From assembly GCA_003216465.1 (NCBI GenBank), contig QCIU01000004.1, positions 1-64,000 of the forward strand: a DNA stretch of 64,000 bases. Direction: 5' to 3'. The translations under genes and the position numbers were made by a program. Origin of the DNA: Prochlorococcus sp. AG-402-N10. GTDB lineage: Bacteria > Cyanobacteriota > Cyanobacteriia > PCC-6307 > Cyanobiaceae. The notes beneath the pieces are model-generated. The model worked only from the letters and a program-made list of their open reading frames with translations. It did no database searches and was not told the DNA's origin. This document shows, in pieces, positions 13,564 to 16,035 of the stretch (positions are counted from its first letter, which is position 1; every line of letters begins with the position of its first letter).

Positions 13564-14475
13564 ATGAATGTAAGCATTGTCATCCCAACTTATAATAGAA
13601 AATCGATATTAAAGAAATGCCTTATTGCTCTTGAAAAACAGACTCTAGCCAACATTATTAGTAATTTTGAAATAGTTGTTGTAGATGATGGCTCTACTGA
13701 TGGGACGCCCTCATGGATTAGAAAAAATAGTGAAATTCTCTCTCATGTGGTCTTATATGAGCAAGAACATGGGGGCCCTGCATTAGCAAGGAACCTTGGT
13801 GTAATGAAATCTAAATATGAAATCATAATATTTATTGATAGCGACCTAATTGTTTTAGAAGATTTTTTACTTTGCCATGTTAATAAATTAAAAACCTGCT
13901 GGGAAATGAAGAACAAAAAATGTTTTACTTATGGCTCAGTTATTAACACTTCCAATTTTAAAAATCCAGAGAATGAGATTTTTAAGTTAACTGATGTTTC
14001 CTTCGCATACTTTGCTACCGGAAATGTCGCTATATCAAGAGAATTACTTTTGAATGTTGGTTTATTTGATACCTCTTTTAGCCTCTACGGATGGGAAGAT
14101 TTAGAGTTAGGAGAGAGATTAAAAAAAATTGGTACAAAATTAGTTAAATGTCCCGAAGCTGTAGGATTTCATTGGCACCCCCCGTTTGATTGCGGACAAA
14201 TTGAATCATTAATATCTCAAGAAAAAGAAAGAGCAAGGATGGCCTTAGTTTTCTATAAAAAACATTCAAATTTAAGAGTAAGATTTATGATTCAATTAAC
14301 TCCTATTCATAATTTACTATGGGAAATAATATGCCTTGGTGGATTGATTAGTATTAAAAGATTATTCCCATTATTAAAATTTTTAGTTGATTCCGGTAAA
14401 AATAGAATTGCTTTAGAGATAGTAAGAATACCACTGAATTTCATTTATGTAAAAGAGCTTAAAAGATTAACTTAA
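13564..14475 (+). CDS. Family 2 glycosyltransferase
   Basis: SIVIPTYNRKSILKKCL, VVVDDGSTDGT, FIDSDLIV, GWEDLELGERL. Confidence 0.93.
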   Translation: MNVSIVIPTYNRKSILKKCLIALEKQTLANIISNFEIVVVDDGSTDGTPSWIRKNSEILSHVVLYEQEHGGPALARNLGVMKSKYEIIIFIDSDLIVLEDFLLCHVNKLKTCWEMKNKKCFTYGSVINTSNFKNPENEIFKLTDVSFAYFATGNVAISRELLLNVGLFDTSFSLYGWEDLELGERLKKIGTKLVKCPEAVGFHWHPPFDCGQIESLISQEKERARMALVFYKKHSNLRVRFMIQLTPIHNLLWEIICLGGLISIKRLFPLLKFLVDSGKNRIALEIVRIPLNFIYVKELKRLT

Positions 14476-14503: not shown

Positions 14504-14532
14504 TTTGAGGAATACAGATTATTTGCTATGAT
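14504..14532 (+). promoter_or_regulatory. Candidate sigma-70-type promoter for rpsB-tsf (TTTGAG-N17-TATGAT)
   Basis: -35-like TTTGAG 14504-14509, 17-nt spacer, -10 TATGAT 14527-14532; implies a leader of about 88 nt. Confidence 0.5.
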
Positions 14533-14554
14533 AATTAAAATTAAAAAAACCACA

Positions 14555-14619
14555 CATCTGACAGTTTCGGGTGATTTAAGTATTTAAATTTCCCGTCAGA
14601 TGGAGGCTAACCCGAAACT
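14555..14619 (+). promoter_or_regulatory. Structured rpsB 5' leader: interleaved inverted repeats (pseudoknot or alternative hairpins)
   Basis: CATCTGAC (14555-14562) pairs with GTCAGATG (14595-14602); AGTTTCGGGT (14563-14572) pairs with ACCCGAAACT (14610-14619); both perfect, order A-B-A'-B'. Confidence 0.75.
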
Positions 14620-14627
14620 TTTTAAAC

Positions 14628-15332
14628 ATGGCTGTTGTATCACTATCTGAAATGATGGAAGCTGGTGCTCACTTTGGGCACCAAACAAGACGTTGGAATC
14701 CCAAAATGTCGAAATATATATATTGCGCAAGGAATGGAGTTCATATTATTGACCTAGTGAAAACGGCATTATGTATGAATAATGCTTATAAGTGGACAAG
14801 AAATGCTGCCAAGAGCGGGAAAAGATTTCTTTTTGTAGGTACAAAAAAACAGGCCTCTGATGTTGTTGCTCAAGAAGCTGTTAGATGTGGTGCGGCATAT
14901 GTAAATCAGAGATGGTTAGGAGGTATGCTTACTAACTGGACTACTATGAAAGCAAGGATAGAAAGATTAAAAGATCTTGAGAGAATGGAAAGTAGTGGTG
15001 CTATCGCTATGAGACCTAAAAAGGAGGCTGCTGTTTTGAGGAGAGAGCTAGAACGATTACAAAAGTATTTAGGAGGTCTCAAAGGTATGAGGAGGTTGCC
15101 TGATGTGGTTGTTCTTGTAGATCAAAGAAGAGAATCTAATGCTGTGCTTGAAGCCAGAAAATTAGACATTTCTTTGGTATCAATGTTAGATACTAACTGT
15201 GATCCTGATTTGTGTGAAGTTCCTATTCCATGCAATGATGATGCAGTTAGATCCGTTCAACTTATTTTAGGAAGACTTGCTGATGCAATAAACGAGGGTA
15301 GAAAAGGTTCTAACGAGCAAAGAAAAAATTAA
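14628..15332 (+). CDS. rpsB: 30S ribosomal protein S2
   Basis: [36 protein letters not shown]. Confidence 0.99.
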
Positions 15333-15378: not shown

Positions 15379-16035
15379 ATGGGAAACATTACAGCAAAAC
15401 TAGTTAAGGATCTTAGAGATAAGACTGGGGCCGGTATGATGGACTGCAAAAAGGCTTTAAATGAGACAGATGGAAATGTTGAAAAAGCTTTAGAGTGGTT
15501 AAGACAAAAAGGCATAGCAAGTGCTGAGAAGAAATCTGGAAGAGTTGCTGCAGAAGGTTCTATTGGCAGCTATATTCATACAGGATCAAGAGTAGGTGTT
15601 CTATTAGAACTTAATTGTGAAACTGATTTCGTTGCTAGAGGCGATATATTTCAATCTCTTTTGAAAGATGTCTCTATGCAAGTTGCCGCATGTCCAAATG
15701 TAGAGTATGTATCTATTGATGAAATACCCAAGGATGTAGTTGAAAAAGAAAAACAAATAGAAATGGGTAGAGATGATTTGTCAGGTAAACCAGAAAATAT
15801 TAAAGAAAAAATTGTTGATGGAAGAATAGCTAAAAGATTAAATGAGTTAGTCTTGCTTTCTCAACCTTATATAAAAGATAGCGCACTTACAGTTGAGGAC
15901 CTTGTAAAACAGGCAGCAGCAAAAATTGGTGAAAATATCAAAGTAAGACGTTTCACAAGATATACATTAGGAGAGGGGATTGAAAAAAAAGAAATGGACT
16001 TTGCTGATGAAGTCGCATCTTTAAAGTCAAATTAA
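15379..16035 (+). CDS. tsf: Elongation factor Ts
   Basis: [31 protein letters not shown]. Confidence 0.99.

Follow-up and report, generated by a model that had tools for sequence, protein, structure and literature searches.

We identified a conserved RNA motif in the 5' leader of rpsB (encoding ribosomal protein S2) within the window, the 64,000-nucleotide stretch of Prochlorococcus sp. AG-402-N10 DNA that was analyzed. Judged by sequence comparison, the motif is the picocyanobacterial form of the published rpsB motif, or t44 S2 leader, and it falls outside the cutoffs of both Rfam families. We consider it probable, at roughly three chances in four, that the motif is a 5'-leader operator of the rpsB-tsf mRNA, in which a P1 stem, a P3 hairpin and a pseudoknot make up a fold that blocks ribosome loading when bound by S2.

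The leader and its genes lie on the forward strand. The rpsB gene (14628..15332; Pfam PF00318, E 1.2e-90) is followed by tsf, encoding elongation factor Ts (15379..16035; Pfam PF00889, E 3.2e-35), the gene order found in the E. coli rpsB-tsf operon. Upstream of the leader is a gene for a family 2 glycosyltransferase that ends at 14475. The predicted promoter (14505..14532) consists of TTGAGG, a 16-nt spacer, and TATGAT with the TG extension of an extended -10 promoter; it shows 9/12 matches, a score of which approximately one example is expected by chance. The promoter is nonetheless credible because in most relatives the leader is preceded by a TAnnnT -10 box at a nearly constant spacing (15 nt in Prochlorococcus, 18–19 nt in others). 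An earlier sequence-only reading of this region depends on a transcript that begins upstream of 14555. The only promoter-like match, with its conserved extended -10, gives an expected transcription start near 14539, upstream of 14555 as that reading requires.

Paired elements of the leader

Two pairs of perfect inverted repeats are interleaved at 14555-14619 in the order A-B-A'-B'. Strand A (CATCTGAC, 14555-14562) is fully complementary to A' (GTCAGATG, 14595-14602), and B (AGTTTCGGGT, 14563-14572) is fully complementary to B' (ACCCGAAACT, 14610-14619). These coordinates and the strand order are exactly those given in the sequence-only reading. The GGAGG that it placed between A' and B' is present at 14602-14606, where its first G is shared with A'. 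The ten base pairs that it assigned to B:B' are all formed in the window, but only nine are conserved; the pair 14563:14619 is A:T in the window, whereas most relatives carry T or C at 14563. Of 5000 dinucleotide shuffles of the intergenic region, 41 contain interleaved perfect repeats of 8+8 nt or longer (p ~ 0.008), and taken without relatives the repeat pattern is suggestive rather than decisive. A chance origin is excluded by conservation in approximately 150 relatives and by covariation.

The relatives were drawn from 80 Prochlorococcus loci and from samples of 151 family genomes and 194 phylum genomes. A strict pattern applied to them could parse 150 loci of the family and 43 of other Cyanobacteriia. 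Among these sequences the P1 stem formed by A and A' is clearly supported by covariation. The compensatory changes on which the sequence-only reading stands or falls are found in A:A', with both sides changed in 7 of 8 pairs across cyanobacteria and in 5 of 8 within the picocyanobacterial set. There are 42 double-change cells compared with 14.6 ± 3.7 in shuffled alignments, and pairing is 95.8% compared with at most 43.5% for slid partners. The covariation score of P1 is reached by 0 of 500 shuffles, and every slid register scores far lower.

Within the P1 loop, the minimum-energy fold predicts a P3 hairpin (14573..14594) that is variable and AU-rich, differing in both length and sequence between relatives. 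P1 is connected to the 3' strand of the putative pseudoknot by a conserved linker (GGAGGCTA, 14602..14609), of which GTGGAGGC is common to the E. coli leader. The linker contains the only Shine-Dalgarno-like sequence at the leader, 21 nt from the AUG.

The pseudoknot is predicted to form between the B strand (14563..14572), in which positions 14564-14572 (GTTTCGGGT) are invariant among parsed family loci, and the conserved B' strand (14610..14619). The pairing strands proper are GUUUCGGGU (14564-14572) and ACCCGAAAC (14610-14618). Apart from 4 of the 150 parsed loci, where ACCCGAAAC carries a small number of changes, both are invariant, and B:B' is 100% paired in 29 sequences. Within cyanobacteria the strand sequence of B:B' is frozen, and no double compensatory change is seen among them. 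Conservation inside the phylum is therefore compatible with pairing and no proof of it; it could reflect sequence recognition instead. If so, S1, an RNase or an sRNA would recognize B and B' by their primary sequence, and their complementarity would be incidental. Such a site agrees with the lack of double changes in cyanobacteria, but the few substitutions seen in B' (GGAAC, AAAT) still pair through G-U, and the core of the pseudoknot is compensated between phyla. We regard a primary-sequence site as very improbable. The core reads CGGGU:ACCCG in cyanobacteria, GGGGU:ACCCC in E. coli and CCGGU:ACCGG in the alphaproteobacterial Rfam consensus, so that two of the five core pairs appear compensated when positions are matched by anchoring on GGGU/ACCC, as we infer them to be. 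In all parsed leaders the loop-side GGGU is complementary to the ACCC after P1. We infer from these comparisons that the pseudoknot forms in this leader.

How completely the two helices form together is less certain. The minimum-energy fold, calculated for nested structures, contains P1 together with P3, and B' is unpaired in it (-21.2 kcal/mol); forcing the full B:B' helix abolishes P1 (-18.4 kcal/mol). A full P1 of 8 bp and a full B:B' of 9 bp, joined by a linker of 1–2 bases, are sterically tight and may coexist only partially. The leader could instead be a two-state translational switch, in which P1 and P3, with a GGG paired to the CCC before P1', alternate with B:B' and S2 selects the state. 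The P3 hairpin does end in CCC, an alternative partner of the GGG at 14569-14571, and this GGG pairs with the CCC at 14592-14594 in the minimum-energy fold. Picocyanobacteria almost always have CC immediately upstream of P1', although other cyanobacteria do not, and this CC might contribute to a competitor helix; the lineage-specific 9-bp B:B' is also difficult to fit whole beside an intact P1. However, three phyla or classes retain P1 as well as the pseudoknot core, in line with the two forming at the same time, and the CCC is unconserved in other cyanobacteria. A switch of this type is unlikely, although it deserves more weight than a primary-sequence site.

The sequence-only reading also offered B:B' followed by TTTTT as an intrinsic terminator, and A:A' would then be the antiterminator of a transcription attenuator. 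In the window B' does run into TTTTT, and the energies of the P1-P3 fold and of B:B' are similar. However, the T run follows B' in 66 of 86 Prochlorococcus-type loci, 1 of 64 other family loci and 0 of 43 other cyanobacterial loci, although B:B' is conserved. At 37 nt the loop is long for an intrinsic terminator, and only a few bases separate the end of the T run from the AUG. A terminator scan finds no site, although its loop limit of 8 excludes a stem with so long a loop. We rejected the attenuator, for which we see hardly any likelihood, because the T run is not conserved and tracks AT-rich base composition, not the element.

Relation to known S2 leaders

At curated cutoffs Rfam yields nothing at the leader, and whole-genome Rfam searches of this organism's own genome leave the site unreported. 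Comparison with Rfam ribosomal leader models was among the checks proposed together with the sequence-only reading. When 221 bases were searched, t44 (RF00127) matched at 30.2 bits (E 7e-5), which is below the gathering score of 44, and there is no match to RF01815 (cutoff 40 bits) in the window. Two other cyanobacteria match RF01815 at 31.4 and 29.9 bits, again below 40. In the reverse direction, a covariance model (R1) constructed from 21 cyanobacterial leaders and zero proteobacterial sequences finds the E. coli rpsB leader (positions 278-354 of locus L255; 26.4 bits, E 4e-5), and the match overlaps the annotated T44/tff RNA. The cyanobacterial model matches the window at 14551..14619 with 72.5 bits, the sole significant match in its own genome, the window being among the 21 training sequences.

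The rpsB motif was published in 2009 (Meyer et al.; PMC2704228) as a structure preceding rpsB that consists of P1, a short or absent P2, P3 and a pseudoknot, with Cyanobacteria among its hosts. In Cyanobacteria, P2 is missing or very short (PMC2704228). Like the leader in the window, the rpsB motif (RF01815) precedes rpsB, and the strand at its P2/P3 junction pairs with a strand following P1. The RF01815 model has longer internal stems, and the window leader scores below its cutoff. The pseudoknot is 5 bp as published, compared with a nearly invariant 9 bp in picocyanobacteria. With t44/tff (RF00127) the leader in the window shares, in order, CACAC, P1, GGGUG, P1', GGAGGC and AACCC before rpsB-tsf. 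However, the internal stems of the E. coli leader are longer, and its AUG is preceded by a separate AGAGG, a site that is missing from the leader in the window. We assign the element to this known kind because of the reciprocal model matches and the published description that includes Cyanobacteria. The S2 autoregulatory pseudoknot suggested by the sequence-only reading is thus correct in kind, but it is not novel, having been reported in Cyanobacteria previously (PMC2704228). Beyond that paper we found no literature on the rpsB leader in Prochlorococcus, and no experimental study of it from any cyanobacterium.

Proposed regulation and Shine-Dalgarno loss

In E. coli, S2 represses translation of its own rpsB-tsf mRNA through the leader in a manner that requires S1 and is not yet explained (PMC10931766, a review). 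The ribosome-binding site is not part of the site from which S2 represses in E. coli (PMC10931766). For the operator that we favor in Prochlorococcus, transcription would begin near 14539, and the RNA would form P1 (14555-14562:14595-14602) with the P3 hairpin in its loop. The loop-side GUUUCGGGU would then pair with ACCCGAAAC beyond P1 to form the pseudoknot, whose connecting strand would carry the conserved GGAGGCUA a short distance upstream of the start codon. S2 in excess over 30S subunits would bind and stabilize the fold. Ribosome loading on rpsB would be blocked, resulting in less S2 and, with it, less EF-Ts. Both the binding of S2 in this organism and the translational nature of the block are drawn by analogy and are accordingly presumptive. 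The comparison indicates that one of the more widely shared operators of ribosomal-protein genes keeps its architecture in Prochlorococcus, a phototroph that is abundant in the ocean and has few regulatory proteins.

The leader differs between cyanobacterial lineages in two respects. A Shine-Dalgarno sequence (AGGAG or GGAG) lies between the pseudoknot and the AUG in all 43 parsed loci of other cyanobacteria, and none follows the pseudoknot in 149 of the 150 picocyanobacterial family loci. The pseudoknot is 9 bp in picocyanobacteria compared with 6–7 bp in other cyanobacteria. We take the latter length because an eighth covarying pair, formed in 23 of the 43 loci, shows no significant excess over shuffles (p = 0.14). 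What is new here is modest in scale: a lost Shine-Dalgarno sequence and a lengthened pseudoknot.

It is possible, although we hold this only tentatively, that the S2 leader of Prochlorococcus, Synechococcus and Cyanobium has been rewired. By this account the downstream Shine-Dalgarno was lost, the pseudoknot grew from approximately 6–7 to 9 bp, and the sole remaining site for pairing with 16S rRNA is the conserved GGAGG within it, 18–28 nt from the AUG. By binding, S2 would then cover the ribosome site itself, a tighter arrangement than the E. coli mechanism, and the change would sit in a lineage in which Shine-Dalgarno use has faded genome-wide. A rough survey, based on small samples of long genes with start codons picked mechanically, puts Shine-Dalgarno use against background at 4% vs 5% and 14% vs 13% in two picocyanobacterial genomes (samples including L235-L240 and L241-L246), at a slight 14% vs 9% in the window, and at a clear 21% vs 2% in another cyanobacterium (L247-L252). 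The loss in the leader probably follows this lineage-wide trend. The lack of a downstream Shine-Dalgarno throughout this lineage provides a natural variant for studying how S2 represses from a site that in E. coli excludes the ribosome-binding site.

Distribution among Cyanobacteria

Virtually all Prochlorococcus, Synechococcus and Cyanobium genomes examined carry this leader upstream of rpsB, as do nearly all of the other oxygenic cyanobacteria in the samples. Of the loci that escaped the strict pattern, most of those run against the covariance model matched it, including the distant locus L211 (64% S2 identity). The CRCAC before P1 and the GGAGG after P1 are conserved, E. coli included, and a GTGG variant occurs in a few loci. 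Members of the phylum outside Cyanobacteriia (L213-L234) largely lack the leader; of six given to the covariance model, L213 alone produced a match, which was marginal.

A different conserved rpsB leader is found in eight of these loci (L218, L221, L222, L224, L225, L230, L231 and L232), approximately 130 nt before rpsB. Its layout is ACTAGTCYGATAGGYTT-GCCCTAGTC, then GGATGRGACAGTTTAGCCCGTAGTACAATA and AAGGAGAAAA at intervals, followed by the start codon. The cyanobacterial covariance model matched 0 of the 4 such loci given to it. The carriers belong to one family of the same phylum, outside the photosynthetic class, and their leader is possibly a separate S2 leader.
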